Shown here one piece after another: positions 9,611 to 42,972 of a stretch of DNA of 64,000 nucleotides. Origin of the DNA: Ancylomarina subtilis. Its GTDB lineage: Bacteria; Bacteroidota; Bacteroidia; Bacteroidales; Marinifilaceae. A program made the position numbers and the translations under genes. The stretch covers positions 2,607,781-2,671,780 of the forward strand of contig NZ_SHKN01000001.1 in assembly GCF_004217115.1 (NCBI RefSeq), written 5' to 3'. Position 1 is the first letter of the stretch; the number at the start of each line of letters is the position of its first letter. A model generated the notes under the pieces. The model saw nothing but the letters and a program-made list of their open reading frames with translations. It had not been told where the DNA came from and searched no databases.

Positions 9611-10924
9611 CTAATCATCAGTCGTCACAACGTGTTCTTTCAATAAAGCTTTCAAAGGGTTAAAGACGCGTTGAAACAAGCGCTGATCTTCAGTAATAAT
9701 CTCAGCAACACCTTCAATCTGTTGTGCAAATTTGAGTTCAATACCATAATTCGTCACAAGCCCGTTTGACAGCTCTACATCTAAGCTGTAATTATCACCA
9801 TCAGGAACCTCAGATATAGAACGTATGACTCCCTGAAGCATCCCATATTCCGTGAAAGGGTAATTGTTGAGCTTAATATTCACTCGTTGTCCCAACTTCA
9901 CCTTTCCGGAACGATTCATTCCCAAATCAACACGTACAACAATACGAGTTGAATCAGATGGCAAAACTGTAAAGACCTTTTCACCCTGCTTCACATTTTG
10001 ATTGGCAGACCAAAAACGATTAAAACTAACAGCCCCATCAATTGGAGATTTAAGTAAATAATTCTGCTCCCAAATATCAATCTGGGCAATCAGATTATCG
10101 TAAGTATGCAGAATCTGATCCAGTAATTCCTTCCTTTTATTTTCTTTATCCAGATCCAAATCGATAATTGCCTGATCAACCTCATTTATCTGAATCTGGG
10201 TGGCTGATAGAGTCGAGCGTGAGCCATGAAAAGCATAGCTTTGTTGCAAGTAATTCTTTTCAGCTTTTTGGTATTCCGATTTTGAGATAACCCCACGTGT
10301 ATAAAGCAATGAATCCCGTTTAAATTCCTTGGAAACAATTGCAAGTTCCTGCTCCAAAATAGTACGCTGCTTATATTGTCGATTGTAATACATCCGATAA
10401 TTACTCCTTTTCTGGATCAGAGAAGCCTTCTTCTTTTCGTGATATTTCAAATCGACAAAACGCTTATAATCAGAGCAGGTTTTTAAATAAGAATTAAATG
10501 GCGCTTGCACTTCACCTAATCGATAATTCTGATTAATAAATGCCGTGGTTAACTGCTCACTCCCATCTAACTGAGGAATATCATGATGAAGTTGTTTGCG
10601 TAAAGCAAACACATCTTCAAAATTTGCAGGATTTTCGATAACAGCTAACAAATCGCCGGAATGAACTGACTGATTATCGCTCACTCTTAAGTCAACAATC
10701 TTTCCATTTACACGAGAAATCAGTTCTGCCGGGGGATTCTCGGTAGTTAAAACCAACTTAGATGCTATAATCTCTGGATAAGAGAAGAACCATGAACCAA
10801 TTACCAAAATCAGCACCACTAAAAACACCAATCCAGACCCCACGCGCACAATCCACGATGGCATTTTACCAAGGATCTCTTGAACGGATTCCGAACGCAA
10901 CTCTATGTTTGTATCTTTTTCCAT
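9611..10924 (-). CDS. HlyD-family secretion adaptor of the lanthipeptide exporter
   Basis: A 437-residue adaptor with one membrane helix near residues 30-50 and a barrel-sandwich half (NGKIVDLRVSDNQSVHSGD, about 73-91). A long helical hairpin (about 110-285) includes LLYTRGVISKSEYQKAEKNY, followed by the second half (LKSPIDGAVSFN) and a beta-barrel. The long N-terminal cytoplasmic segment and the position right after a C39-peptidase ABC exporter (9-base gap) are typical of bacteriocin export. The two would form a pump that links to a TolC-like outer-membrane channel encoded elsewhere. It is the last gene of the lanthipeptide operon. Confidence 0.92.
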   Translation of the reverse strand: MEKDTNIELRSESVQEILGKMPSWIVRVGSGLVFLVVLILVIGSWFFSYPEIIASKLVLTTENPPAELISRVNGKIVDLRVSDNQSVHSGDLLAVIENPANFEDVFALRKQLHHDIPQLDGSEQLTTAFINQNYRLGEVQAPFNSYLKTCSDYKRFVDLKYHEKKKASLIQKRSNYRMYYNRQYKQRTILEQELAIVSKEFKRDSLLYTRGVISKSEYQKAEKNYLQQSYAFHGSRSTLSATQIQINEVDQAIIDLDLDKENKRKELLDQILHTYDNLIAQIDIWEQNYLLKSPIDGAVSFNRFWSANQNVKQGEKVFTVLPSDSTRIVVRVDLGMNRSGKVKLGQRVNIKLNNYPFTEYGMLQGVIRSISEVPDGDNYSLDVELSNGLVTNYGIELKFAQQIEGVAEIITEDQRLFQRVFNPLKALLKEHVVTTDD

Positions 10925-10933
10925 AACACCTAA

Positions 10934-13141
10934 TTAGTTTCCAAGTTCTAACTGATTCTTAACCAACTCATAATATCTTCCTTTCAACTTTGTCAAGTCA
11001 TTATGGCTGCCATGTTCAACAATTTGACCTTTATCCATAACGATGATTTTGTCCGCATTACGAACAGTGCTTAAGCGATGCGCAACAACCACAACGGTAC
11101 GCCCTTGATTGAACTCATCCAAATTTTCCATAATGGCTCTTTCATTGTTGGCATCCAAAGCATTAGTCGCTTCATCAAAAAATAAGAATTCCGGATTTTT
11201 ATACACAGCACGAGCAATTAATATACGTTGCTTTTGTCCCTGACTCAAGCCATGACCATTAGCACCAATCTTCGTATTATAGCGCAAAGGTAAACTGTCA
11301 ATAAATTCATGTATACAAGCTACCTGAACGGCATAAAGCAATCTTTTTTTATCAATAACCTCATCACCTACAGCAATATTTTTGGCAATGGTATCTGAGA
11401 AAATGAAACCATCCTGCATCACGACCCCGCAATTCTGACGCCACATAGCCGAACTGTAATTTTGAATAGAAACACCACCCAAATTGATTTTCCCTTTGGT
11501 TGCAGGGTAAAAACCAAGCATGAGCTTTATCAAAGTTGTCTTTCCACTACCAGACGCACCCACAATAGCCGTGGTTTTTCCTTTTGACACATGTAAATCA
11601 ACCTCATTCAGCACCATCTCAGAATGCGGTCCCTCGTATTGGAAGCTAACCTTATCGATATGTATGGATTTATCTTCAGGTAATTCAATTAACTTTTCAT
11701 CTTTATCAACTTCCTCATCCTCCATTTCGTGAATTTCGCCCAAACGCTCAAGTGAGATTTTGGCATCTTGCCAGGAATGAATAAACTGAACCAAATTATC
11801 GATAGGCGAATTCAACTGACCAAGAATGTATTGAACCGCCAGCATCATACCCAAGGTCATACTCCCATTAACAACAGCTTGCGCAGCTAAAAAGGTGATA
11901 ACAATATTTTTTGTTTCATTAAAAAACACCGAACCGGACACCTGATATTGATTCAAAGCCAGACCTTTGGTTCTTACCTGAAAGAGTTCTGCCTGAATAT
12001 TTTCCCACTCCCATCGCTTTTGCTTTTCACAGTTATTCAATTTGATTTCCTGCATACCTGTAATCAGCTGAACAAGCGAATTCTGATTGCTGGATAGTTG
12101 AGCAAAACGCTTGCCATCCAACTCCCGACGCTTTTTAAGAAAAAGGTTAATCCAAATGATGTAAAGACTCGATCCCAAAAGGAAAACAAGGAATATGGTC
12201 GTGTTGTAGATGGCCAATACCACCCCGAAAATCAAGAGATTCACCATAGAGAACAGAATGTTCAGTGTGGATGATGTCAGGAAATTTTCAATTCGGGTAT
12301 GATCCTGTATACGTTGCAAAAGATCGCCAATCATCTTGATATCGAAAAAACCAATAGGCAACTTCATCAACTTGATTAAGAAATCGGATATCAAGGAAAT
12401 ATTAATACGGGTTGAGATGTGTAAAAGAATCCAGGAACGAATAAACTCAACTGATATGCGAGAAATAAAGAGTACCATCTGTGCTATCAGAACCAAATAG
12501 ATAAAACTCAGATTCTGAGTATTGATACCGATATCCACCACCGATTGGGTAAGGAATGGAAAAATAAGCTGCAACATACTTCCGAAAAGCATGCCCAAAA
12601 ACAATTGAAATAGAAATTTTTTATACGGTTTCAAATAACGAAAAAGAAAACTGATACTCTTTTTCTTGCTCCCACTCTCATCCTTTGCCTTATAAAAATC
12701 AGGCGTTGGTTCCAAAAGCAAACACAGGCCTTTCAAGTCGCCATCCACCTTGGTTGATCCCCATGCCTTTATAAATTCCTCCATGCTGAATTTGAGTAAT
12801 CCGGAAGCCGGGTCAGATACATGAACAATGGTTTTATTCTTCTTTTTCTCGATTTTATGAACCACCACAAAATGAGCTTGGTTCCAATGGCAAATAGCGG
12901 GTAGTGTCGCTTGATCGGCCAACTGCTCAAAAGTAATTCGCACGCCCATGCTACGAAAACCAATGCTCTCAGCCGCATCCGCAATACCCATCATCGACAC
13001 ACCCTCGCGGGTAATGTAGGATTTATCTCGCAGCGACTGCAAACTATACGTTTTACCATAAAACTTCGATATCATGCGCAGACAGGTCGGTCCGCAGTCC
13101 ATAGCATCGAGTTGACGAAAATGGGGGAATTTTTTTTTCAA
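10934..13141 (-). CDS. Peptidase-domain ABC exporter (C39), double-glycine leader processing
   Basis: A 735-residue fusion of three domains. The N-terminal C39 papain-like peptidase (1-145) has the catalytic Cys16 in LDAMDCGPTC, His90 in NQAHFVVV and Asp110 in VSDPASG. The membrane domain (about 170-460) has about six helices. The ABC ATPase has Walker A GASGSGKT at 528-535, LSQGQ at 632-636 and FLFFDEATNALD. Such PCATs cut precursors after Gly-Gly and export the core peptide. The precursor at 17624-17773 has such a leader. The start is TTG at 13141: no ATG or GTG lies upstream in frame before a stop, and the next ATG is too close to Cys16. A 262-base gap separates it from the LanB genes. Confidence 0.95.
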   Translation of the reverse strand: MKKKFPHFRQLDAMDCGPTCLRMISKFYGKTYSLQSLRDKSYITREGVSMMGIADAAESIGFRSMGVRITFEQLADQATLPAICHWNQAHFVVVHKIEKKKNKTIVHVSDPASGLLKFSMEEFIKAWGSTKVDGDLKGLCLLLEPTPDFYKAKDESGSKKKSISFLFRYLKPYKKFLFQLFLGMLFGSMLQLIFPFLTQSVVDIGINTQNLSFIYLVLIAQMVLFISRISVEFIRSWILLHISTRINISLISDFLIKLMKLPIGFFDIKMIGDLLQRIQDHTRIENFLTSSTLNILFSMVNLLIFGVVLAIYNTTIFLVFLLGSSLYIIWINLFLKKRRELDGKRFAQLSSNQNSLVQLITGMQEIKLNNCEKQKRWEWENIQAELFQVRTKGLALNQYQVSGSVFFNETKNIVITFLAAQAVVNGSMTLGMMLAVQYILGQLNSPIDNLVQFIHSWQDAKISLERLGEIHEMEDEEVDKDEKLIELPEDKSIHIDKVSFQYEGPHSEMVLNEVDLHVSKGKTTAIVGASGSGKTTLIKLMLGFYPATKGKINLGGVSIQNYSSAMWRQNCGVVMQDGFIFSDTIAKNIAVGDEVIDKKRLLYAVQVACIHEFIDSLPLRYNTKIGANGHGLSQGQKQRILIARAVYKNPEFLFFDEATNALDANNERAIMENLDEFNQGRTVVVVAHRLSTVRNADKIIVMDKGQIVEHGSHNDLTKLKGRYYELVKNQLELGN

Positions 13142-13403: not shown

Positions 13404-14273
13404 TCAGTTGATTTTTGAATATGTCATTCTTGCGATTCTAGATTTATAAGCACGCCACATAAAATCATAAACAAGCAATTCATAAAGTCGTTGATCGGCT
13501 CTAAAAACACGATTCATCAGCATGTGCACATGACTTTGTATTATAGACTCAATCGTATATTTATTACCTGATTGAATTTCCAAAATTTCAGAAATATATT
13601 TTTTAATCACATGATTATCTAATGATAGCAAATTTGTAATTGAGGCGGATTTGTCAGCGAACAAATATTGGTCAATTATATTACGGTAATTTCGATATTT
13701 AGATTCAATCTGTCTTTTTAAAGGATTGTTAATATTAAATTCAGATCCAAAAGCATCTTTTAATTTCTGAAAAAACGCCTTTTTAGTATTAAAATCAAAT
13801 TCGAATAATGTAAGATAATTATCAATCAAGGCAATTACAAAAAATAAACGCTCTTCATAATTTTCATTATTTCTCATAAATTGCAAAATCAAACGACTTT
13901 CAGCACAAAAAAGCTTTTCTGAGATTTCTATAGATTCAATGGCATATCTTTCCAATTCTCTTTCGTAAGTATCTAATTGTAATTTATGGATAACATCCGA
14001 TTGAACTAAAGGTGCAAAAATTTCATTCATTGAACTCATAGTATCTAATAGGGCATCTTGATTAGATAGAAATAATCTCAATCTAATATGTGCATGAGGA
14101 TCTGAATATCTAATAAAGAAGAACCTCTCAATTAATCCTTGAGCCTCTAATTGCTTACAAAGAGAGTAAATCTCATTAATTAAAATATCATCAGCTGTTT
14201 TTACACCACAATATATTTTATAATATAACCATTGATCTCCTGGAAGATATGATCTGGAAATTACATTTTTCAT
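13404..14273 (-). CDS. Lantibiotic dehydratase C-terminal (glutamate elimination) domain protein
   Basis: A 289-residue protein of the SpaB C-terminal/thiopeptide-type biosynthesis family. The opening GDQWLYYKIYCGVKTADDIL and the motif FFIRYSDPHAHIRLRL (about 52-67) are diagnostic. In full-length LanB this domain removes glutamate from glutamylated Ser/Thr, giving dehydrated residues. Here it is a separate polypeptide, as in many Bacteroidota clusters, and starts 11 bases after the gene for the N-terminal glutamylation half. The two must act together on the precursor peptide in the cytoplasm. The coding DNA is noticeably more AT-rich than the flanking housekeeping genes, which suggests acquisition of the cluster. 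Confidence 0.9.
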   Translation of the reverse strand: MKNVISRSYLPGDQWLYYKIYCGVKTADDILINEIYSLCKQLEAQGLIERFFFIRYSDPHAHIRLRLFLSNQDALLDTMSSMNEIFAPLVQSDVIHKLQLDTYERELERYAIESIEISEKLFCAESRLILQFMRNNENYEERLFFVIALIDNYLTLFEFDFNTKKAFFQKLKDAFGSEFNINNPLKRQIESKYRNYRNIIDQYLFADKSASITNLLSLDNHVIKKYISEILEIQSGNKYTIESIIQSHVHMLMNRVFRADQRLYELLVYDFMWRAYKSRIARMTYSKIN

Positions 14274-14284
14274 CAGGGAATTAA

Positions 14285-16429
14285 TTATTCGTGACTATAA
14301 AATGACAGAATGAACTCGTTAGAATATGAGCCATCAGAACCTTTTACAAGATGTTCTTGGTCAAAAGTTTCAAGTAACTTTACAGATTTATTACGATGGA
14401 GAGTATTAATTAGAATTTTAACACAATTAGAATCATTGAGATTAAGAATTAGCTTTTTATCACCCTCTTCCATATTAACTAATGTTGGAATATTGTTTAT
14501 TTCTCTATATTCTTTAAATTTTTCAACTATTAAATCTTCTTTTAAATTCAAAATTTGGAGATCAGAATCAAGAATAATCCAGGTAGCTGGTGAAAAAATT
14601 ATATTCTTATAGCTCACTCGAGGTAGAAAAGTTGCGACTCTTTCTACTTGTCCCCAAGTAAAACTTAAATTTGTATTAACATCTTGATACTGCATATCAC
14701 CCAAAAACTGATACACATGCTGTGTATTGTACATATAATTAAATGCTGAACTTAATCGAGGGATGATTTCTTTTTTCAATCTGGTAGAAAACAATAGAAT
14801 ACGATCATTCTCTATACTTACCATTATTTCATTCAACTTAATCTGATTATCAATGTCTACACTTGATTTTGACAGAAAAGGTATTTCGTATTCACGTAAC
14901 GTAGGTCTCAATAAAACATTCCCAAATCGAGATTCAGGTAAATGAACAACCTCTGCAATAATTTTATTATTTCCTATTAATTCTTTCTCTTTATCACAAA
15001 TTTCACAAGCAAATGTTTTTATCTTATCATTAGAACTACCAAACCTACTTAATAGGTTACTAGCACTAGATCCCCCTACCTCACCTAGCCCAATTTTTAG
15101 TTTTTTATCCTTAGAATACGATAACTCAATTACAGCTGAAAAAGTAAGTGGCAGATTACTGCCTACATCTTTAAAATCTTTCAAATCATCTTCAGTAAGC
15201 TGTATTTCCATCTGTCGCATAGAGAGAGCTTGATTCATTTTCCGGTAAAAGAATACTTCTGCCTCAGAAAGAACCATATTATCTTTGGAAGTACTAGGAA
15301 TTTCAATTCCTTCAATAATCTCTGAATTATCAGATAATAAATTTAAATAACTGTTATAACCGATTCCTGACTCAACATCTAAAGCATCTAACAGTGGTAT
15401 TTGCCTGTCTCCATAACGTTCTCTAAATTGATTTTTAAAATTTATCAGATTTTGGGGCGAACCATGAGTATAATTATTAATCTTATCAATAATCATTATC
15501 CCTTTTTTTACATCTTCAACAATATCTTGAGACAAGATGCATTTTTTAGTAGGCTTAAATGAATCCACTTGTAAAAAATTTTTAAGAGATATATCAGGTA
15601 TTAAACGTCGAAGTTCCTTTTGAATGAGATCATATCTTTTATAGATGTGATCACTACTACAACTATCAATACGAACTAATTCATTTTGTATTCTTACCAA
15701 AGAATCCAATATATTAATCTTTGGTTTAATATGACTTAAAATATTAATCATCCTTTTTAAGGGATTACTACCTGTGACTTGTAAATCAAGTTCACTGACT
15801 AATAATTGAGACCTAATCAATTCGTGAATAAATTCCTCTGAATCATTTATAGGAATATCATTACTCACTAACAGATTAACTAAGTTTATAAAGGTAGAAC
15901 CAGAAGACGCTTCATCAAGAATAAGTTTTAGATATTCTGAAAAATTAACGGATATTAGTTCATATCTTCTAATTAATTTCTCATCTATTTTACACTCAAT
16001 ATATCTTAAATTATCTCTTGATTCATAAATACTCGAATTCGCAAAGAATTTTACCCCATATATAACTTCAGGGATTTTTTTTAATGTTTCAGTAATCAAA
16101 TCTAGACATCTCATATCTAATCTTGATTGTCTCTCATAATTTTCTCTTTTTTTAAGGAGAATATTATTTTCGTCACTTATTTTACCTATGGAACATCCTG
16201 CAAATAAACCGAAAGGAGTACAACGACAACAAGAGCGACGCCAATATTTGAAAATGGCGAGCTGTTGCTTCTCTGATGGTTTATAATTCTTAATTCCTAA
16301 TGTATAAAGATCTGGTGAGGATAAATAAACAGCTTCCTCAAACAAAGAATCTATTTTTAATTCTCCAATATTATCAATTGGGAAAAGGGGTGTTCTTAAT
16401 ATAAATTTATTAAAAGCTTTTATTTTCAT
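14285..16429 (-). CDS. Lantibiotic dehydratase N-terminal (tRNA-Glu dependent glutamylation) protein
   Basis: A 714-residue LanB N-terminal protein. It begins like the family (FNKFILRTPLFPIDNI, 5-20) and has the conserved CTPFGLFAGCSIGK block (about 75-88), a region with LRFRYGDRQIPLLDAL-like sequence, and the later segment RFGNVLLRPTLREYEIPFLS (about 521-540). In class I lanthipeptide pathways this part transfers glutamate from Glu-tRNA to Ser/Thr of the precursor. The elimination half is the next gene downstream. It lies 5 bases after the LanC stop, so the genes are probably translationally linked. It is AT-rich like its neighbours. Confidence 0.93.
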   Translation of the reverse strand: MKIKAFNKFILRTPLFPIDNIGELKIDSLFEEAVYLSSPDLYTLGIKNYKPSEKQQLAIFKYWRRSCCRCTPFGLFAGCSIGKISDENNILLKKRENYERQSRLDMRCLDLITETLKKIPEVIYGVKFFANSSIYESRDNLRYIECKIDEKLIRRYELISVNFSEYLKLILDEASSGSTFINLVNLLVSNDIPINDSEEFIHELIRSQLLVSELDLQVTGSNPLKRMINILSHIKPKINILDSLVRIQNELVRIDSCSSDHIYKRYDLIQKELRRLIPDISLKNFLQVDSFKPTKKCILSQDIVEDVKKGIMIIDKINNYTHGSPQNLINFKNQFRERYGDRQIPLLDALDVESGIGYNSYLNLLSDNSEIIEGIEIPSTSKDNMVLSEAEVFFYRKMNQALSMRQMEIQLTEDDLKDFKDVGSNLPLTFSAVIELSYSKDKKLKIGLGEVGGSSASNLLSRFGSSNDKIKTFACEICDKEKELIGNNKIIAEVVHLPESRFGNVLLRPTLREYEIPFLSKSSVDIDNQIKLNEIMVSIENDRILLFSTRLKKEIIPRLSSAFNYMYNTQHVYQFLGDMQYQDVNTNLSFTWGQVERVATFLPRVSYKNIIFSPATWIILDSDLQILNLKEDLIVEKFKEYREINNIPTLVNMEEGDKKLILNLNDSNCVKILINTLHRNKSVKLLETFDQEHLVKGSDGSYSNEFILSFYSHE

Positions 16430-16434
16430 AATTT

Positions 16435-17538
16435 CTAAAACAAAAAAGATTCATCCCAATGAATAAATTCCTCATCTATATGGGACATTAACGCCAAGCC
16501 AATTCCAGAAACACCTAACAAAAGATTATTGTCTATAACAAACTTATCTCCATCCCATGTTTTAAATCCAGCAACACCATCTTCATAGTCAGCAAAATTC
16601 AATGTGCTTTCTAACCAAAATTCTTTTGCCTTTAAGAACTCATCGTTACCGTACAAATTATACAACCTACTGAATATCTGTAAATTACCTGCAGAACCAT
16701 GACAAAAACAAGCTTCATTAATTCCACCTAATCCATTACCCCTAAGCATAGAAGCATTTAAAGCCAAGCTAGTTATTTTAGCACTTAAAGTAGGATAAGT
16801 CAAATTAGCAACTCTCAGTAAGGCATATATTATTCCTGCATTACCATTACACCAAATAAACCTCTTTTTTAAATCGAAATTATTAAGAACAAGGTGAGCA
16901 ATCTCGTTAATGTAAGCAACAGCTTTTTCCCCATGTATGTTTTGCTCGACAAATCGATTTAAAACAAGAAGCAAGCCAGATATTCCGTGAGCTAATCCAC
17001 AGTCAAATGAATCATTATTAGAGTCTATCCGATTAGTAACATTCTTTGTTTTGACTATTTTATTAGAAATATTTTGAAAAATATCCTTTACAAAAACTCT
17101 ATTTTCTGGGTGATTTTCTAAGTCATACAGTAAATAATATATATTCCCCAAAGCTCCATGCAAAAAATCTAGATTATCATTCTCTAGAAGTTTAGTTGTT
17201 ACATTAAATATATCACTCTCAATCCCAATATATATTTGTCGATAATCCGAATGAATATATTTATACTTTATCAGATGTTTAACAAACCAAAGTATACCTG
17301 TAAGGCCTTCTGAAATTCCTAATCGCATAGGCTTGCTATGCAAATCACTTATAACATTTTCTAAAATAGATAAACCTACTTTCTCAAATTTTTCATCATG
17401 CAAAAATCGGCTTGCGTAAAAGAAAAATAAAGCATGCCCTATTTTGCCATTATGAAGGGAATCAGACTCTTCATTATTATAGACTGATAATAAATGACAG
17501 CTTATCGTTTCAATTTTTTCTTTAATTTCTAAATTCAT
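16435..17538 (-). CDS. Lanthionine synthetase C family cyclase (LanC)
   Basis: A 367-residue LanC-like protein that adds Cys thiols to dehydrated residues to close (methyl)lanthionine rings. Typical elements are the GLAHGISGLLLVL helix hairpin (about 179-191) and the zinc ligands in FIWCNGNAGIIYALL and ACFCHGSAGN (two Cys and one His), plus the terminal LLGVSGIGLALM repeat. The expected seven G-rich repeats of the double alpha-barrel can be followed. I start at the ATG at 17538 (MNLEIKEK); a TTG 15 bases upstream is possible but less likely. It is the first processing gene after the precursor, separated from it by a terminator-like hairpin. Confidence 0.93.
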   Translation of the reverse strand: MNLEIKEKIETISCHLLSVYNNEESDSLHNGKIGHALFFFYASRFLHDEKFEKVGLSILENVISDLHSKPMRLGISEGLTGILWFVKHLIKYKYIHSDYRQIYIGIESDIFNVTTKLLENDNLDFLHGALGNIYYLLYDLENHPENRVFVKDIFQNISNKIVKTKNVTNRIDSNNDSFDCGLAHGISGLLLVLNRFVEQNIHGEKAVAYINEIAHLVLNNFDLKKRFIWCNGNAGIIYALLRVANLTYPTLSAKITSLALNASMLRGNGLGGINEACFCHGSAGNLQIFSRLYNLYGNDEFLKAKEFWLESTLNFADYEDGVAGFKTWDGDKFVIDNNLLLGVSGIGLALMSHIDEEFIHWDESFLF

Positions 17539-17574
17539 ATAATCAGAAGCCAATAAATACTAATAAATTACATC

Positions 17575-17607
17575 ATAAAAAATAAGGCTGTTCTATTCAA
17601 ACAGCCT
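17575..17607 (-). terminator. Intrinsic terminator after the lanthipeptide precursor gene
   Basis: On the minus strand AGGCTGTT, a 7-base loop and AACAGCCT are followed by TATTTTTTATG. It lies 16 bases after the precursor stop and before lanC. Partial termination here would give more precursor mRNA than enzyme mRNA, a common arrangement in RiPP operons. Confidence 0.75.
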
Positions 17608-17623
17608 CATTATGTTTTCATGC

Positions 17624-17773
17624 TTACTTTTTATCAGTCACTTTTTTTGTCTGCATGGCTGCACAAACAGCTGTATAAGTTGCATACCATCCCCCCTTAG
17701 TATTTAACATTTCAGGTTTACTTAAATTTGCGATCGATTTCTTTCCTAATTCTAACTTGTTCTCTTTTTTCAT
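17624..17773 (-). CDS. Class I lanthipeptide precursor peptide
   Basis: A 49-residue peptide. The leader MKKENKLELGKKSIANLSK is of the Bacteroidota lanthipeptide type (KLxLxKxxIAxLS) and ends in a double glycine at 27-28 (LNTKGG). The 21-residue core begins with W29-Y30 and has four Thr (32, 34, 42, 46), no Ser and a single Cys37, so at most one thioether ring is possible. T34-A-V-C37 is the obvious methyllanthionine pair. The Lys-rich tail ends KKVTDKK. Start ATG at 17773; a GTG 36 bases upstream in frame would add residues that do not look like a leader. Cutting after GG by the C39 exporter is inferred. Confidence 0.9.
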   Translation of the reverse strand: MKKENKLELGKKSIANLSKPEMLNTKGGWYATYTAVCAAMQTKKVTDKK

Positions 17774-17787
17774 AATAAAATAATAAG

Positions 17788-17928
17788 TTGGCATAGCTCC
17801 ATTCCCCACCCAATTGCCAATTGTACAGGTTATCTCAATTTAGTAGCTTTGCCTTCGACTAAGAGTAGCTCTGCTACCAGGCCGCATCCGGTTTGAGAAT
17901 GGATTTACATCTGTTTTTCCGGGGTGGC
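17788..17928 (-). promoter_or_regulatory. GC-rich structured 5' leader of the lanthipeptide precursor gene (candidate cis-RNA)
   Basis: This stretch is far richer in G+C than the surrounding AT-rich DNA and can fold on the minus strand. A hairpin TGCCAA/TTGGCA (17815-17820 with 17788-17793) ends 14 bases before the ATG. Its loop holds GGGTGG (17806-17811), which can pair with the distal CCACCC (17922-17927), giving a pseudoknot. Between them are GTAGC-AGA-GCTAC (17865-17877), a TTAGT/ACTAA stem (17840-17862), and CCGG/CCGG with GCC/GGC (17881-17928), which competes with the long-range pairing. This looks like a switch, but no Rfam class was recognised. The opposite strand also gives a GC stem followed by TTTTT at 17929-17933, so the strand is not certain. 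Confidence 0.45.
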
Positions 17929-24878: not shown

Positions 24879-24913
24879 GGGTTACTTTTTGCAAAAAAAA
24901 GGAATAAAGGGGT
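24879..24913 (+). promoter_or_regulatory. ECF-type promoter/operator candidate, copy 1 (35-bp repeated motif)
   Basis: GGGTTACTTTTT, a 10-base variable part, then GGAATAAAGGGGT. The same 35-bp block with 31 identical bases occurs at 29382-29416 in front of the double-glycine peptides. GTTAC is a plausible ECF -35 element and GAATAAA a -10 element at about 16 bases. It ends 7 bases before the sigma ATG, so a promoter here would give a nearly leaderless mRNA. Confidence 0.55.
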
Positions 24914-24920
24914 AGATAAC

Positions 24921-25481
24921 ATGGATTACACAACAGAAGCAATTCTGGAAGGAATTGGAACAAGCAATAATGATGTACTAAATTACATCTATCGCAAGTT
25001 CTTTCCTGATACTTGCAGATTCGTTGAAAACAATAGTGGAACCAGTGAGGACGCACGCGATCTTTTTCAGGAGGCTATTATTGTAATCTATCGAAAAATG
25101 AAAAAGTCACCGATTGTGTTGACTTGTAATTTTCGAACGTATATCTACTCTGTATGCCGCCTATTGTGGCTAAAAAAACTTGAGAAAAGAAATGATAATC
25201 TTGACATTATCAAATCAGACGTTGTACTCGATCAACAGGTTGACGATGTAAGTAAGTCTTACGAACAAACTGAAAAGTACCGCCTGTATCAGAAGCATTT
25301 TAAACAATTACCTCCTGATTGTCAAGAGATCATGAAACTGTATCTTGAGAAAGTTTCTGCAAAAGAAATTGCAAAAAGAATGGGCTTTGCCGGAGAAGAT
25401 TACGTAAAATCTAGGAAGTATAAGTGCAAGCAAACACTTATAACGAATATTAAAAACGATAATCAATTTACCGAAGTATGA
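24921..25481 (+). CDS. ECF-type RNA polymerase sigma factor
   Basis: A 186-residue sigma-70 family protein. Region 2 (about 20-90) has DARDLFQEAIIVIYRKM for core binding and CNFRTYIYSVCRLLWLKKLE for -10 recognition. Region 4 (about 130-178) has LPPDCQEIMKLYLEKVSAKE and a helix-turn-helix ending in KSRKYKCKQTL. There is no region 1.1 or 3, as usual for the ECF group. I start at ATG 24921 (MDYTTEAILEG); a TTG 66 bases upstream would translate through the conserved 35-bp motif. The stop overlaps the next gene by four bases (ATGA), the usual coupling with an anti-sigma factor. Autoregulation through the upstream motif is inferred. Confidence 0.93.
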   Translation: MDYTTEAILEGIGTSNNDVLNYIYRKFFPDTCRFVENNSGTSEDARDLFQEAIIVIYRKMKKSPIVLTCNFRTYIYSVCRLLWLKKLEKRNDNLDIIKSDVVLDQQVDDVSKSYEQTEKYRLYQKHFKQLPPDCQEIMKLYLEKVSAKEIAKRMGFAGEDYVKSRKYKCKQTLITNIKNDNQFTEV

Positions 25482-26233
25482 TGAACGAAAAAGATTTTGA
25501 TCGTATAGAGAATTACCTAGACGGTCAGCTAAACGAAAACGAAATCTTAGATTTTGAAAAAGATCTAATGGATGATCTTGACCTGGAGATGGAACTAAAT
25601 CTTCATAACGAGATAAACGAAGCTATAATGGAAGACGATGTCATGGAGTTGAGAAGTAAGCTCGAGGCCATCGATATTCCTGCAACTACTGAAGAAAAAC
25701 GCAAGGCTAAATTCCATGGAAAATGGAGAATAGCAGCAGCCTCTATGATTCTTTTCATTGGAATGGCGAGTGTCTATTACATGTTGGGCAATAAAACCTA
25801 CTCCAATGAGGAAATTTTCATGAATTACTACAAACCGTACGGTATTGTGATCAATACACGTTCCGGAACGGATACGAATGAAGCTGATCGAATACTGGAT
25901 CAGGCTCTTAAATCGTACGAGGCCAAAAACTACCGTACAGCTTTATCTTTGTTTCAAACAATTCTGGAAAAAGACAGTACGAACTTAACCAGTAATTTCT
26001 ATTCGGGTATTTCTAATATCCAAGTTCAAGAATACCTTAAGGCTAATAAGAATTTTCTGCGGGTGTTAGATCATAAAAACAACCTGTTTATAGAGCAGTC
26101 TGAGTGGTATTTAGGAATTTGCTACCTAATGACTAACAAAAGAGAAAAAGCTATTGAAACCTATCGAGCTATTGCCGAAGGAAATAGTTTCTATCGAACC
26201 AAGGCTAAAGAAATACTTAATAAACTAGAATAA
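25478..26233 (+). CDS. Anti-sigma-like membrane protein with periplasmic TPR repeats
   Basis: A 251-residue single-pass protein. The N-terminal cytoplasmic part (1-80) has the layout of Bacteroidota anti-sigma domains: IENYLDGQLNENEILDFEKD (10-29), an acidic helix, and LNLHNEINEAI. A membrane helix (about 84-104, RIAAASMILFIGMASVYYML) is followed by a C-terminal region of about three TPR-like units (ALKSYEAKNYRTALSLFQTI, then SGISNIQVQEYLKANKNFLR). The natural reading is that it holds the ECF sigma factor at the membrane and senses a periplasmic partner through the TPR part. It overlaps the sigma gene by four bases. The role is inferred from position and architecture, not from a recognised signature. 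Confidence 0.8.
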   Translation: MMNEKDFDRIENYLDGQLNENEILDFEKDLMDDLDLEMELNLHNEINEAIMEDDVMELRSKLEAIDIPATTEEKRKAKFHGKWRIAAASMILFIGMASVYYMLGNKTYSNEEIFMNYYKPYGIVINTRSGTDTNEADRILDQALKSYEAKNYRTALSLFQTILEKDSTNLTSNFYSGISNIQVQEYLKANKNFLRVLDHKNNLFIEQSEWYLGICYLMTNKREKAIETYRAIAEGNSFYRTKAKEILNKLE

Positions 26234-26261
26234 ATCGTTTCATCATACTATCGTTATATAC

Positions 26262-26297
26262 AAGGATTGTTCTTTAAAAGAACAATCCTTTCTTTTT
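26262..26297 (+). terminator. Intrinsic terminator of the sigma/anti-sigma operon
   Basis: AAGGATTGTTCTTT (26262-26275) and AAAGAACAATCCTT (26277-26290) form a 14-bp stem followed by TCTTTTTG. It may also work for the convergent CHAT gene's transcripts, which end at 26417. Confidence 0.85.
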
Positions 26298-26416
26298 GTA
26301 TAAATAGTTTCTTAAACGAAATGAAGGGTATTTCAGAGTCAAAACCTAGTTCGTCTGTGGAATAAAAGTAGATTATAGTTCTAATTGGAGACATTAAACC
26401 ATCACAATCTTTCTAA

Positions 26417-29275
26417 TTAGTTTAGAGTTTCATCCTTGATCTTTTTAGACACGGAGCGTTGCCAAATAAAATACAAACCTCCGAACAAAAGGACACCTCC
26501 AAGGAACATCAAAATCTTATGAATCATACTAAATCTAAACAAGGTTTGGGTATCACCAATGGCAACATAACCTGACCAAAAATAGGGGTGTGATTTCAAA
26601 GCATCAGCAGATTCCAGATAATCCAATTTAGCCTGCTGCAAGGCAACATCCTTAGGAAAGCTTTGAGCTAAATATTTGTAGAATGAAGACATCAAAGTAG
26701 AACCTGATAAGTCCTCAACTGTCCAAAGTGTCATGATTAAACTTGGACAACCGGAATAAAAGAAACCACGCGCTAAACTCATAACACCTTCTCCTTTCAG
26801 AAATTTTCCATCTCCCGAATTACAAGCACTCAGTACAACCATTCTTGCCTTGAGATTCATATTATAAATCTCATGAGTATTTAATAGGCCATCATTCAAA
26901 CTGTCTCCTGTTTGACTGAAAACCAATTTTGAGTACATCGGATTTTCGTCATCCAGAATCGTATGCATTGCCAAATGTAATATGTCAAAACTCTCTGCTT
27001 TCGCCTTAAAATTCGTTTCAGAAGCAAACTCGTCCAGATAGGTTTCTCCCGTGAATATTTTCGAAATATTTTCTACTTCTATCTTAGCACCAGGCAAAGG
27101 ATAAAGTTTGTTATTATGAACTTGTCTGGTTACCAAAATGGTGTCACTTACATTATCATACGAAGGCGCAAAAGCTAAGAGCTTTTTAGATGCAGAAGAT
27201 GAAAATTCCTTTGCTGAATGCTTGTAAGCAATCGTTGCCGAATTTTGATAACTGATCGGATTGTGCCTTATTAAATAATCCAAATTACGGTAACTTATAC
27301 TCTCGGGATCACCTTTCTCTTTTAATAAAACCCCAAAGGGCACATAGGCCAATTTACCTTCAGGAATAATGATTAAATGCTTTTTCTCAATCACCGCTTC
27401 GTAAGGCTCTATCATCAATTGGTAAAGCTTATGAGCCGAAGAAATATAATCCTGATAATATTTCATACTATTGTCAGAAAAATCATTTGTTTTTAGACTG
27501 TTCCGAATATTCTGAATATTAGCCTCCAATTCACCTTTCCTTAGAGTTGTTCTCTTCATTTCGAAAAAGTCACAGCCTAAAACAAAGGAATATAAGGTTG
27601 AATCAGAAAGAGCATATTCCATCAAAACTTCCTCTTCTTTAAGCTCTTTTTGTAGCTCATTTACAGAAATACTCGCATTATCATATTTCAGGGCGTAGTA
27701 GTCAGGATGTTCAGTCTCAAAACGCTTAACCATTTGTTCATACTCAGCATTTAACTCGAATAGTGTATGACGCCAATTTGAAATAGAATCCGCAACAGGC
27801 TTAAGTTGTTTTCTTTCCTGGTATATCTTTTCACGATAATCAGCAATATCTTGCTTTAACTGACGCTCTAAATTCTGCAAATCAAGAGGAATACCTCCAA
27901 AGGTTTTTGCATCAACATCGTTTAAATAATTTCGCAAACTCGAAGCTTTGACACGTTCTGAATATTTAAAAGCAATCTCTTTATACATTGGGTTACCCGT
28001 CAGTTCAAACAGAGTTGCTGCGACTTCAATAGCCAAAGAGAAAGTTTCATTTTCATTAGCACTCAGCGCCAATTTAGACTCCTCATCTTGATAAGCGATA
28101 CGAATCTGGTCAATAACATTAACACATAAGTCGTAAGTCATCAGAGATGCCTTCAAGTATTTAATCTGATTCGTTGTTTTGTGGATTTTATGTAAAGTTG
28201 AAGCTTTGTCTGAAAGTATTTCAAGGGTCGTCAACTGCCCGTCAACCTGCTCAATATTGGGGTTTTCATCAAAGCCTCCCCCATGGAAATCATAGGTACT
28301 CGACACTAAAGCTTTTTGATAAAATTCCAAAGCCTTTAGATAATTCTCTTCCTTGAAATAAACCGTTCCAAAATTTTTCAAACAATGCGCCGTATCCGGA
28401 TGCTTCAGTCCGAATTTAGCCAAATAAATATCATACGATTTGTTTAGATAGGCCTTAGACAATTTATTGTTTCCCCTAGAAGAATGAAAAATAGCATAAT
28501 TCAAATAAAAACTAGCCAAATCTGAATTCCCTTCCCCATTAATTTTTATAGATTCCTCTATGCTCCATCTCAAATAGCGATCAGCCTCTTTGACATAACC
28601 TAATTCTCTATAACAATTCCCAATATTACCAAGATTTAAAGAAAGATCTTTAACATGCCTTTCCTTCTTAATCTTAAGCCCTTCCAATAAATATTTGAGC
28701 GCATTGGTGTAGTCCTTATTATTCTTTGAAACCAATCCAAGATTACTAATTACTCGATCCCTCCAACGTGTAGCTTCAGGATTTTTTTCAATAATAAAGA
28801 GTGCCGCCTCATAAAATTTCTGTGCTTTTAAATTATCTTTAGTATACAGGTAAATATTTCCCATATTTACATAGACTGGAGCCAATTTCCCTGATGATTC
28901 CCCAAAATATTTCTTACAAATAATTTCAGCGGAGTTAAAATAAATCAAAGCATCCTTAAACTTTCCCAATCTGACTAATGTAGCTCCATAATTAACCTTG
29001 TATCTATATAAAAGATTAAAATTCTTCAATTGAGACTCATCTATATTTTCTTCTACTTGTTTAAAATAGCTTTCTGCTCCCTTGTTATTGCGAGATCGTA
29101 ATTCATTTACAGCCTTATTAAACAGGATCAGTAAAGACGAATCGGCAGAAATGCTTGTTTTAGACTGAAAAACTTGAGAAGGATTTGATGCTTCTGTATA
29201 AAAATTTGACGCCAAACACATCAAAAAGCATGAGGCAAGCAACAGATATCGAAATATTTCTTGATTTTTTTTCAC
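26417..29275 (-). CDS. Periplasmic TPR-CHAT protease, membrane anchored
   Basis: A 952-residue protein. An N-terminal signal sequence (about 8-28) is followed by many TPR units (about 45-450, for example YVNMGNIYLYTKDNLKAQKF) and a coiled-coil linker (about 470-530). The C-terminal CHAT caspase-like domain (about 600-905) has a catalytic His771 in HLAMHTIL and Cys818 in VVLSACNSGDG, then GEGVMSLARGFFYSGCPSLI. A final membrane helix (about 918-938) is followed by a basic tail, so the protease should face the periplasm. The start is GTG at 29275; no earlier in-frame start exists before a stop. It converges with the sigma/anti-sigma operon and diverges from the two double-glycine peptides, both likely partners. 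Confidence 0.9.
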   Translation of the reverse strand: MKKNQEIFRYLLLASCFLMCLASNFYTEASNPSQVFQSKTSISADSSLLILFNKAVNELRSRNNKGAESYFKQVEENIDESQLKNFNLLYRYKVNYGATLVRLGKFKDALIYFNSAEIICKKYFGESSGKLAPVYVNMGNIYLYTKDNLKAQKFYEAALFIIEKNPEATRWRDRVISNLGLVSKNNKDYTNALKYLLEGLKIKKERHVKDLSLNLGNIGNCYRELGYVKEADRYLRWSIEESIKINGEGNSDLASFYLNYAIFHSSRGNNKLSKAYLNKSYDIYLAKFGLKHPDTAHCLKNFGTVYFKEENYLKALEFYQKALVSSTYDFHGGGFDENPNIEQVDGQLTTLEILSDKASTLHKIHKTTNQIKYLKASLMTYDLCVNVIDQIRIAYQDEESKLALSANENETFSLAIEVAATLFELTGNPMYKEIAFKYSERVKASSLRNYLNDVDAKTFGGIPLDLQNLERQLKQDIADYREKIYQERKQLKPVADSISNWRHTLFELNAEYEQMVKRFETEHPDYYALKYDNASISVNELQKELKEEEVLMEYALSDSTLYSFVLGCDFFEMKRTTLRKGELEANIQNIRNSLKTNDFSDNSMKYYQDYISSAHKLYQLMIEPYEAVIEKKHLIIIPEGKLAYVPFGVLLKEKGDPESISYRNLDYLIRHNPISYQNSATIAYKHSAKEFSSSASKKLLAFAPSYDNVSDTILVTRQVHNNKLYPLPGAKIEVENISKIFTGETYLDEFASETNFKAKAESFDILHLAMHTILDDENPMYSKLVFSQTGDSLNDGLLNTHEIYNMNLKARMVVLSACNSGDGKFLKGEGVMSLARGFFYSGCPSLIMTLWTVEDLSGSTLMSSFYKYLAQSFPKDVALQQAKLDYLESADALKSHPYFWSGYVAIGDTQTLFRFSMIHKILMFLGGVLLFGGLYFIWQRSVSKKIKDETLN

Positions 29276-29381
29276 AATAGAAAAGAAATTTTAACAGGCT
29301 GAATAGATGAATGATACACCCTTTAAAATTATTCAAAACATATCGATTTTATATGCTTTTGAAAAAAAACTTTCACTTTCC

Positions 29382-29416
29382 GGGTTACTTTTTACCCAAA
29401 AAGGGAATAAAGGGGT
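29382..29416 (+). promoter_or_regulatory. ECF-type promoter/operator candidate, copy 2 (35-bp repeated motif)
   Basis: The same block as at 24879-24913 (31 of 35 bases identical, with the four differences in the spacer). It lies 40 bases before the first double-glycine peptide gene and about 105 bases upstream of the divergent CHAT gene. It is the main evidence that the peptides belong to the ECF sigma regulon. Confidence 0.55.
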
Positions 29417-29456
29417 GTAAACAGAAAGCAATATTCACTTTATAATTTAAATAACC

Positions 29457-29558
29457 ATGAAAAATTTTGAAATTCTTAACGCGGCTCAATTATTAGAAGT
29501 AAAAGGTGGTGCAAACGAGCTTACAACAAAAGATATGGCTGAAGAGTGTATAGTTTAA
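29457..29558 (+). CDS. Double-glycine leader micropeptide, copy 1
   Basis: A 33-residue peptide. The leader MKNFEILNAAQLLEVKGG matches the double-glycine secretion leader pattern (F, L, then LLEV-x-GG). A 15-residue core, ANELTTKDMAEECIV, follows, with one Cys three residues from the end. Such leaders are cut by C39 peptidases during export; an exporter of this type is encoded at 10934-13141. The gene is too short for normal gene finding. Its reality is supported by the tandem copy 31 bases downstream, which keeps the frame and the core, and by the upstream ECF-type motif. Signal peptide, bacteriocin or protease substrate are all possible roles. Confidence 0.8.
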   Translation: MKNFEILNAAQLLEVKGGANELTTKDMAEECIV

Positions 29559-29589
29559 TTTTTTTATTATTTTTCCAAAACTTACAACT

Positions 29590-29691
29590 ATGAAAAACTT
29601 TGAAATTCTTAATTCAACAGAACTATTAGAAGTTAAAGGTGGTGCAAACGAACTTACAACAAAAGATATGGCTGAAGAGTGTATAGTTTAA
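29590..29691 (+). CDS. Double-glycine leader micropeptide, copy 2
   Basis: A 33-residue tandem copy of the preceding gene, with the same core and the same stop. The leader differs at three residues (STE instead of AAQ at 9-11). By hand count the core region including the stop (48 bases) differs at one synonymous base, while the 54-base leader differs at ten, so the core is better kept than the leader. The spacer between copies (31 bases, T-rich) has no clear terminator. The kinase gene begins 82 bases later on the same strand and may be co-transcribed. No modifying enzyme is encoded next to it. Confidence 0.8.
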   Translation: MKNFEILNSTELLEVKGGANELTTKDMAEECIV

Positions 29692-29773
29692 TAATCTACT
29701 CTATATTTCTGGAGGTTATTTCGATCAACCACGATACTCTCACAATTAAATAAACATTAGAAAAGATTCCTGC

Positions 29774-30601
29774 ATGGAGAAACGTCCGACTTACTGCGAA
29801 CTTGAAGAACAGTTGGCAGAGGCATTACGAAGAGCAGAGGGAGCAGAAGAATTAAAGAACGCTTTCCTTGCGAATATTTCACACGAAATACGCACGCCCA
29901 TGAATGCTATTATAGGAGCATCGGATATCCTTCGCGACGAATCATTAACTAATGAAGAAAGAAATGAATTTGCTTCTATTCTAAATATTAGCAGTCGTTC
30001 ACTTCTCGATTTACTCAATCGAATTATCGATTTATCCCAATTGGATTCCGGAATCATGAAATTACATGAATCTGAAACCGATCTGGAAGCTGTCATCATC
30101 AGGTTATATACAATCTATGAAGACAAGATTAAAATTCTGGATAAAGACATTACAATTGATTATCAAATCGATTGTCACAATCCCAATATTATTATTGATG
30201 GCGAAAAGCTTGAGAAATCAATCAGCTACCTTCTAGATAATGCCATTAATTTTACTCAATCCGGAAAGATTGAACTTTCTTGTACCTTACAAGATGATCA
30301 GGAGATTAAAATCTCTGTGAAAGACACTGGCGTGGGTATTAGTCAAGAACAACAAGAATCCATATTCAATAGATTCAACCAAGTTGATAACTCATATACA
30401 CGTAAGCAATCCGGTGCTGGTATAGGCTTAAGCTTATGCTCAAGATATATGAAATTGATGCGTGGCTCTTTAAAACTAGAGTCTGAATTAGGACAAGGTT
30501 CAACCTTCTTCCTAAGTGTACCAACTTCCTTCAAAAAAGAAGAACTTGAAGAAATGGAAACCAACACGGGGATCCAAAACAGAAATAGTTTTGTAGGGTA
30601 A
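29774..30601 (+). CDS. Soluble histidine kinase without sensor domain
   Basis: A 275-residue kinase that consists only of a short coiled coil (about 8-30), the dimerisation/phospho-acceptor domain (His37 in NISHEIRTPMNAIIG) and the ATPase domain. The latter has N-box LLDNAINFTQ, DTGVGIS and GAGIGLSLCSRY. There is no membrane segment, PAS or receiver domain, so input must come through a partner protein or the coiled coil. The acceptor box is of the hybrid-kinase (HPK1a) type. No response regulator is adjacent; a stand-alone receiver at 42592-42972 is one possible partner. It lies directly after the double-glycine peptides on the same strand. Confidence 0.9.
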   Translation: MEKRPTYCELEEQLAEALRRAEGAEELKNAFLANISHEIRTPMNAIIGASDILRDESLTNEERNEFASILNISSRSLLDLLNRIIDLSQLDSGIMKLHESETDLEAVIIRLYTIYEDKIKILDKDITIDYQIDCHNPNIIIDGEKLEKSISYLLDNAINFTQSGKIELSCTLQDDQEIKISVKDTGVGISQEQQESIFNRFNQVDNSYTRKQSGAGIGLSLCSRYMKLMRGSLKLESELGQGSTFFLSVPTSFKKEELEEMETNTGIQNRNSFVG

Positions 30602-42591: not shown

Positions 42592-42972
42592 ATGAGCTGG
42601 GAAAATAGAAACTTTAAATTACTATTGGTTGAAGACAACAAATTGAATCAAATTGTTGTGAAGTTTAGTTTAAAGCGATTTGGATATGATATTGTGACGG
42701 CCAATAATGGAATTGAAGCTATAGAAGAATTCAAGAATAACGAATTTGATTTTATTCTGATGGATGTCATGATGCCTGAGATGGATGGTTTAGAAGCCAC
42801 AAAACATATTCGTCAGTTAGAAAATGGACACGAAATTCCAATTATAGCTCTTACAGCTGACGTGATTACTGCAACTGCTAACAAATGCCGCGATAGTGGT
42901 ATGACAGCTCATATGTCAAAGCCTTTTGAAGTTGAGAAACTTTTTGAGATTCTGGAAAGTTTAAATCTTTGA
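42592..42972 (+). CDS. Single-domain response regulator (receiver only)
   Basis: A 126-residue CheY-like receiver with nothing else attached. The acidic pocket includes E14 and D15 (LLVEDNKLN), the phosphorylation site is D58 (FILMDVMMPEMDG), the switch Thr lies in ALTADVI, and the conserved Lys is in HMSKPFEVEKL. The sequence resembles receivers of hybrid kinases rather than CheY. Without an output domain it must pass phosphate on or act by binding a partner. No kinase gene is adjacent; the sensorless kinase at 29774-30601 belongs to the matching hybrid-type class and is a speculative partner. A TATATTTG at 42495-42502 may be part of its promoter. Confidence 0.92.
   Translation: MSWENRNFKLLLVEDNKLNQIVVKFSLKRFGYDIVTANNGIEAIEEFKNNEFDFILMDVMMPEMDGLEATKHIRQLENGHEIPIIALTADVITATANKCRDSGMTAHMSKPFEVEKLFEILESLNL

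Follow-up and report, generated by a model that had tools for sequence, protein, structure and literature searches.

What common task, if any, falls to the extracytoplasmic function (ECF) sigma factor, membrane anti-sigma factor, caspase-like protease, double-glycine (GG) peptides and histidine kinase that lie side by side in the genome of Ancylomarina subtilis? Their genes occupy positions 24879 to 30601 of a 64,000-nucleotide stretch of contig NZ_SHKN01000001.1, referred to here as the window, and an original prediction made from the letters of the window had put them forward as candidate parts of a single system. Our results lead us to propose, with a probability of roughly 0.45, a secreted-peptide switch built on the ECF sigma factor, in which the peptide would be sensed by the protease, a tetratricopeptide repeat (TPR)-CHAT protein, the anti-sigma factor would be cut and sigma would be freed.

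A conserved gene unit in the Marinifilaceae

The genes named in the original prediction are all present as described, as judged by open reading frames (ORFs), family models and hydrophobicity. On the forward strand, the gene at 24921..25481 encodes an ECF sigma factor of 186 residues that scores 65.4 bits against TIGR02937 (cut-off 42.9) and is thus recognised by the curated model for sigma2/sigma4; the two Pfam sigma regions, taken singly, fall below their cut-offs. It is overlapped by a gene (25478..26233, forward strand, start at 25478 or 25481) whose position and product topology point to a single-pass anti-sigma factor with a TPR domain predicted to be periplasmic. The TPR-CHAT caspase-like protease is encoded on the reverse strand at 26417..29275, has a GTG start and was named from PF12770 (200.5 bits, cut-off 24) and alignment. 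Beyond it, again on the forward strand, come two GG peptides read from their ORFs (29457..29558 and 29590..29691) and a histidine kinase recognised by HisKA/HATPase domains (29774..30601).

A survey of 58 related genomes, 34 of them from the same family, found the peptides in 14 (search at E 0.1). A profile of the anti-sigma factor had matches in 22 genomes (E 1e-6 or better), 14 of which reached E 6.4e-139 or better. The 14 genomes with a close anti-sigma factor are the same 14 that carry the peptides; these genomes are related and hence not independent. Co-occurrence in related genomes was what the original prediction had proposed to look for, and the genes do form one conserved unit in these 14 of the 58, with peptides lacking the sigma and CHAT genes seen in none of the 14. 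Eleven of them, the window included, keep the gene order sigma, anti-sigma, CHAT (reverse), peptides, kinase. One contig (G022) ends inside the peptide array, and in two genomes of one genus (G013 and G024) the contigs also end inside the array, CHAT and kinase are on separate contigs and the contig of the kinase carries sigma and anti-sigma at a distance of about 38 kb. In another member of the family (G015) the sigma/anti-sigma pair has diverged (about 48% identity), and no CHAT or peptide gene was recognised within the 16.5 kb examined. The unit is also present in Marinifilum and Labilibaculum, and across 22 named loci CHAT was seen in 19 and peptides of this leader type in 15, several of the others being short contigs.

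It is very likely, then, that the gene unit is real and recurrent. The separation of sigma/anti-sigma from peptides and kinase by about 38 kb in two genomes of one genus is what accidental neighbours without a common function might show, but the joint presence in the same 14 genomes, the common promoter class described below and the repeated assembly of these genes in other families and outside the order already contradict such an explanation, which we consider extremely improbable.

A promoter-like element shared by the sigma and peptide genes

Motif comparison and genome pattern searches delimited a 35-bp promoter-like element, GGGTTAC-TTTTT-N-GGAATAAAGGGGT, ahead of the sigma gene (24879..24913, forward strand) and a second copy ahead of the peptide genes (29382..29416, forward strand), where the original prediction had reported one motif at both places. 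With up to 3 mismatches allowed, the core pattern has two matches in the window, both mismatch-free, where 0.02 were expected from shuffles, and an equivalent exact pattern matches the 4.0-Mb genome only at these two sites, before sigma and peptides. The form GGTTAC-n-TTTT-N10-GGAATAAA precedes both the sigma gene and the peptide array in 11 genomes compared, the array-side site of G010 coming from a separate pattern search and G003 and G004 carrying small variants.

Pattern searches were extended to 20 genomes, 14 with the module and 6 family members without it, with seven spacings allowed. The first pattern gave 43 matches, all with a single spacing: 26 stand before the sigma gene or peptide array of 13 module genomes and 17 elsewhere, all of these in module genomes as well, with no match in the 6 module-less family genomes and 1 match for the reversed pattern. 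The second pattern gave 39 matches, again with a single spacing (reversed, 1), and recovered the sigma site of G003 that the first had missed; a search with up to 2 mismatches gave 23 matches, all in 5 module genomes and none in 4 module-less ones (reversed, 2). That sigma would induce itself and the peptides, as originally predicted, is supported by this fixed-spacing promoter class, and we hold it to be highly probable, judging from sequence, that sigma controls its own gene and the peptide genes, which it would transcribe from one class of promoter.

The same class reaches further, to operons for ribosomally synthesised and post-translationally modified peptides (RiPPs) or GG peptides, to lipoproteins and to C25 proteases. 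Small helix-turn-helix (HTH) genes stand behind 4 of the 17 off-module sites, C25 proteases behind 3 and lipoprotein-like genes behind 4, the last a call that rests on reading of N-termini by eye; 6 are unassigned. In three of the four HTH cases a RiPP or GG-peptide gene comes next: the HTH gene is followed in L220 by a TIGR04149 peptide (L220:3069-3257) with a TIGR04148 maturase, in L232 by LanC, a GG lanthipeptide and LanB, and in L234 by a GG peptide with a C39 ATP-binding cassette (ABC) protein downstream. The C25 proteases, of gingipain type, are similar to one another (L223, 3017-5968; L228; L231), and the one in L223, which alone was family-scanned, has the sorting tail PF18962. The genome of the window has a third site, C1:2028146, which deviates from the pattern by two mismatches. 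An HTH gene 0.5 kb downstream of this site heads a thiazole/oxazole-modified microcin (TOMM) operon (C1:2028650-2032417; L258 1150-4917), in which it is followed by TIGR03882 leader-binding, YcaO/SagD TIGR03604 and SagB TIGR03605 genes. Sigma-type sites precede TOMM operons in Ancylomarina, and they also precede a lanthipeptide operon in G012. The LanB/LanC cluster of the window itself, considered as a further member of this regulon, was rejected, having no promoter match with up to 3 mismatches. In another copy of the TOMM operon (L260) a Cys-rich precursor-like peptide is readable.

The TPR-CHAT protein and the anti-sigma factor

His771 and Cys818 of the CHAT protein are invariant in 34 of 34 aligned CHAT proteins, a pattern that points to a His/Cys dyad. 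The protein has an N-terminal hydrophobic stretch of signal type at residues 7-21, after two lysines, and a C-terminal segment at 916-939 followed by basic residues, so that the alignment of 34 sequences and the hydrophobicity profile together uphold the dyad, signal-type stretch and C-terminal helix of the original prediction. The anti-sigma factor has a single hydrophobic segment (residues 84-102) with a basic stretch ahead of it. Because of these membrane segments and their flanking basic residues, the positive-inside rule places both the CHAT protein and the TPR half of the anti-sigma factor in the periplasm, as a prediction. Single TPR Pfam models fall just under their cut-offs for the anti-sigma factor, and a structure model gives a TPR fold at 132-249.

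Conservation is uneven across genera. The TPR region of the CHAT protein is its least conserved part (identity 0.37-0.43), compared with 0.61-0.65 for the CHAT domain and 0.69-0.73 for the TPR domain of the anti-sigma factor. A variable CHAT TPR region beside a conserved CHAT domain and a conserved anti-sigma TPR fits a peptide-binding TPR and a conserved pair of protease and substrate. Structure matches of the anti-sigma TPR include, among many other TPRs, ones solved with C-terminal MEEVD peptides, and the cores of the peptides have acidic residues near their ends; binding of the MEEVD kind was nonetheless dropped, since no carboxylate-clamp Lys/Arg was seen on reading by eye.

A precedent for such a pair comes from the type III-E craspase, in which the TPR-CHAT protein Csx29 cuts the sigma inhibitor Csx30 (PMC10028731). 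Craspase TPR-CHAT chains (7y8t, 8eex, 7y9x, 7xsr and 7y83) are among the 50 structural matches listed for our protein, and they align over long stretches, unlike the TPR-only matches, with template-modelling (TM) scores of 0.27-0.35 on the query and a root-mean-square deviation of 12-16. A phmmer search of the PDB with the CHAT domain alone gave one chance-level match (E 0.086), and a profile of the whole protein matched 200 PDB sequences, the best 60 of 200 being TPR matches. The predicted topology and the craspase precedent make cleavage plausible, and we lean towards the CHAT protease acting on the anti-sigma factor: it would cut the conserved periplasmic TPR half, and further proteolysis would then free sigma.

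Other origins for these genes were considered. With PADLOC, CHAT had a weak TPR match, the kinase had two matches and sigma and anti-sigma had none, and a known anti-phage system was set aside; so was a phage origin, PHROGs having matched sigma alone of four proteins. The number of CHAT genes varies, with a second one in the locus of G004 and two in tandem between anti-sigma and peptides in Ancylomarina euxinus (L128 10939-17157).

The peptides and their probable exporter

The two 33-residue GG peptides originally predicted consist of 18-residue leaders, diverged from each other, and identical 15-residue cores (ANELTTKDMAEECIV). Leaders in the module genomes read M-x-NF-...-KGG, and the cores have 12-15 residues, finish with a pair of acidic residues followed by a variable position and [IL]V, and carry a net charge of -2 to -5 (ten genomes). 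When all recognised copies are counted, two to six peptides are present in each of 13 genomes and one in G022, at a contig end. All cores are identical in 11 of the 13 multi-copy genomes, with leaders that differ (50-94% identical within one genome for selected pairs); between genomes, the mean identity of first-copy leaders is 0.68 and that of cores 0.41. Cores that are mostly uniform within a genome and mostly different between species would be expected of a receptor-matched signal, a tendency and not a rule.

Both GG peptides fall below the cut-offs of curated models (PF10439, 16.5 and 20.7 bits with 27.1 needed; TIGR01847, 13.4 and 14.3 with 15.7 needed), as does peptide 2 against PF03047 (10.7, with 20.4 needed); the leader shape and the GG site are nonetheless present. 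The radical S-adenosylmethionine (SAM) GG RiPP model TIGR04149 did not match the module peptides up to E 1. Assignment of the module peptides as a whole to the lanthipeptides was rejected, some cores being devoid of Cys, Ser and Thr (G008, for example).

The probable exporter is a C39 peptidase-containing ABC transporter encoded at 10934..13141 on the reverse strand (PF03412, 112.4 bits, cut-off 22; TIGR01193 and TIGR03796 give 408.7 and 460.3 bits, both below cut-offs). It is adjoined by an HlyD-type adaptor gene (9611..10924, reverse strand), named from its own sequence and position without a family scan, and the pair, 9611-13141, lies about 12 kb from the peptides and is kept near the module in the relatives examined. 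Cleavage at the GG site is established for C39 exporters as a family, and this one would remove the leader and export the acidic core of 12-15 residues.

Exported peptides next to a protease predicted in the same compartment invite another explanation, that CHAT processes or clears the peptides, by a second maturation cut or by destruction of the signal, and that some other protease controls sigma. CHAT and peptides are indeed divergent neighbours in 11 contiguous family loci, and CHAT is predicted to be exported. However, C39 exporters already cut at the GG site, with PF03412 here above its cut-off, and CHAT accompanies sigma and anti-sigma also where no peptide is seen, which makes the anti-sigma factor its more constant partner; a processing role is therefore unlikely.

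For the switch proposed here, the core would bind CHAT, a membrane-anchored protein, at its fast-evolving TPR superhelix and activate the His/Cys protease, and freed sigma would close a positive loop of autoinduction in which genes for RiPPs and exoproteases are switched on. A triggering role for the peptide is a tentative proposal to which we give slightly less than even odds; the variability of cores and of the CHAT TPR region hints at it.

Beside the exporter, at 13404-17790 on the reverse strand, are a split LanB (TIGR03891 C-terminal part), a LanC-like gene and a GG-leader lanthipeptide-like precursor, and a similar LanC/LanB set occurs in L089. Between a Crp-type gene and the C39 exporter, across L086-L096, the exporter is constant and its neighbours vary with the species: L089 has LanBC there, L086 and L092 have other GG peptides. 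It looks as though one export cargo had been exchanged for another.

Distribution outside the family

Of 393 genomes from the order, 143 had a member of the anti-sigma family at E 1e-15, with at most 6 candidates scored per genome, and 40 loci from 39 families were drawn from the upper part of the anti-sigma matches listed. Sigma is present in 37 of these survey loci, CHAT in 28, a C39 exporter in 10 and a short kinase in 12. Of 25 complete 1.2-kb stretches upstream of CHAT, 9 hold a GG peptide, and of 188 such stretches ahead of other genes, 1 does (Fisher 9e-9). Peptide and exporter are both present in 7 survey loci, the peptide only in 2, the exporter only in 3 and neither in 28 (p 2e-4); both p-values are too strong, because the GG-peptide expression and the 1.2-kb limit were fixed after viewing the same loci, a post hoc test, and because the genomes are related. 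At the level of the class, 16 of 395 genomes match the anti-sigma factor at E 1e-30, the genome of the window included. Twenty of the 24 other class-level matches listed were examined; 12 have CHAT and 3 a GG peptide with a C39 exporter (L265, L266 and L275), the peptides of L275 adjoining sigma, not CHAT. The unit exists in two forms, one with peptides and exporter and one with no detectable peptide.

The shared element was compared in 16 loci preselected for a GG peptide, 14 of which have it near CHAT. The best match between the sigma and peptide upstream regions ranks above those of all other genes in the locus in 6 of the 14 (L078, L151, L184, L185, L265 and L266, the last two from one genus). 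Five of them keep GGTTACCTTTT or GGTAACCTTTT, and L184 (9032-13990) has a different bipartite promoter-like element common to sigma and peptide, as expected if promoter and sigma changed together, with co-varying specificity.

Among the peptide-less loci, L149, L076 and L077 have a longer CHAT protein (about 1100 residues), and a neighbouring secreted protein in L076 and L077 resembles, on reading by eye, a carboxypeptidase-regulatory-like repeat protein. Two anti-sigma genes, one directly after a GG peptide, occur in L156 and L187.

Signal or effector

Several observations weigh against a peptide signal sensed by CHAT. Two of the 22 named loci (L131 and L142) have CHAT and no recognised peptide, one core copy carries a single change in G026 and another four changes in G013, Labilibaculum filiforme has three core types among five copies (L134 13984-14780), and Marinifilum breve (L140) has its core in common with M. 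flexuosum (L144, with the core of G032), so that cores are not strictly species-specific. Outside the family, 19 of the 28 CHAT-bearing survey loci have no GG peptide upstream of CHAT, some of them on short contigs and one (L187) with a GG peptide beside its second anti-sigma gene; CHAT would therefore gate sigma without such a peptide in these loci or sense something else. The shared sigma/peptide element was not found in 8 of the 14 outside-family loci compared. The exporter lies 12 kb from the peptides, beside a lanthipeptide cluster that may make use of it, and two further C39 matches occur in the genome. In the structure model, the CHAT core has a predicted local distance difference test (pLDDT) value below 50, and with the low TM-scores this means that the craspase likeness supports the architecture only and not the geometry of the active site. 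Finally, TPR domains often evolve faster than catalytic domains, which makes the argument from variability a weak one.

Part of this evidence favours a CHAT-gated stress response, in which CHAT and the anti-sigma factor would sense envelope damage or an enemy and the peptides, as small bacteriocins or surface peptides produced alongside the RiPPs, would be effectors and not a signal. The missing peptide in 19 of 28 CHAT loci and the two or three core types of some genomes speak for it, as does the promoter class, which also precedes C25 proteases and RiPP operons of the lanthipeptide, TOMM and radical-SAM kinds, all of them outputs. Short acidic cores that are mostly uniform within a genome and mostly different between species, on the other hand, fit a signal better than a toxin, and the ORF list of the window shows no recognisable gene for modification or immunity next to the peptides, although a small immunity ORF could escape notice. 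We regard a stress response of this kind as possible, if on balance rather doubtful.

The histidine kinase

The kinase was originally described as sensorless, and neither a sensor domain match nor a hydrophobic segment above threshold was found in it; it is probably cytoplasmic. In the switch proposed here it would probably add a second, cytoplasmic input. It could instead be the peptide-responsive element, by two-component sensing like that of ComD, with CHAT and sigma as a parallel unit at the same locus, and its place beside the peptides in the contiguous Marinifilaceae loci, together with its presence in 5 of the 9 peptide-bearing survey loci and in 7 of the 31 others, would agree with this. 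Against it, no membrane segment or sensor domain was found in the kinase, and no response regulator was recognised next to it in the window, the nearest one noticed lying at 42592-42972; direct sensing by the kinase is very unlikely. The gene at 42592-42972 is a single-domain response-regulator-like gene with a RuvB-like gene, also seen in L038 (6441-6854) and L041 (12849-13244), and because it is near the kinase in the genomes of these two loci, on reading by eye, it is a possible partner.

Relation to known systems

The streptococcal pheromones ComC and BlpC are short GG-leader peptides, exported by a C39 transporter, that control bacteriocin-type genes, features shared with our locus; their read-out is ComDE or BlpRH, whereas here it would be an ECF sigma factor, and the curated ComC/bacteriocin models are not reached. 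RRNPP receptors (Rap, NprR, PlcR) bind their peptides by a cytoplasmic TPR domain after re-import and, except for Rap, carry an HTH domain. Our locus resembles them in that the receptor proposed for a short exported peptide is a TPR superhelix, and Rap and NprR occur among the weaker of the TPR matches listed, but the TPR here is predicted to be extracytoplasmic and is fused to a protease with a C-terminal membrane helix and no HTH model among its family matches. The PspX/PspW pair of planosporicin is an ECF autoinduction circuit of the MibX/MibW kind.

The MibX/MibW pair itself, from Microbispora, is an ECF sigma/anti-sigma pair that drives the RiPP genes of microbisporicin by feed-forward, the lantibiotic signalling its own production (PMC4973701). 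No CHAT protease was noticed there, and in our locus a separate GG peptide, to all appearances unmodified, is the candidate for the signal. In RseA/DegS and RsiW, as in the cleavage proposed here, a single-pass anti-sigma factor cut on the outside frees an ECF sigma factor (precedent in PMC10028731), but the protease of first cut here would be the caspase-like CHAT and not DegS or PrsW. The likeness to craspase/CASP lies in a TPR-CHAT His/Cys protease linked to a sigma factor and its inhibitor, with positive autoregulation of the locus predicted (PMC10028731); the differences are that CHAT is here predicted to be exported and membrane-anchored, that the inhibitor is a membrane TPR anti-sigma factor, and that peptides and exporter are present. 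RAMP proteins (Cas7-11, PF03787) had no match in the 4.0-Mb genome, by a search that was positive in 4 of 14 control genomes, and membership in the craspases is ruled out. The craspase and Microbispora precedents make each of the proposed steps reasonable.

The link of CHAT, ECF sigma and GG peptides had been put forward as undescribed, and our literature search, with many subscription papers outside its scope, found no earlier description of the combination. Nor did it turn up GG-peptide signalling in Bacteroidota or any physiological role for the non-CRISPR TPR-CHAT proteins encoded next to ECF sigma genes.

Conclusions

Examination of this locus places a CHAT protease, an ECF sigma factor and GG peptides within one gene unit that recurs in the Marinifilaceae and beyond. 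A widespread class of peptide signalling in the Bacteroidia, with largely species-specific GG peptides, sensing by the TPR domain of CHAT, cleavage of the anti-sigma factor and induction of RiPP and exoprotease genes, is a broader claim that we advance with considerable reserve. Were the switch confirmed, a substrate and a trigger would be assigned to CHAT proteases of this kind, and craspase would appear as a CRISPR offshoot of a general CHAT/anti-sigma/ECF logic, within the wider set of protease-gated sigma switches. The promoter and gene set make the proposal testable in named marine isolates, and synthetic peptides would offer a handle for inducing silent RiPP clusters in Bacteroidota.

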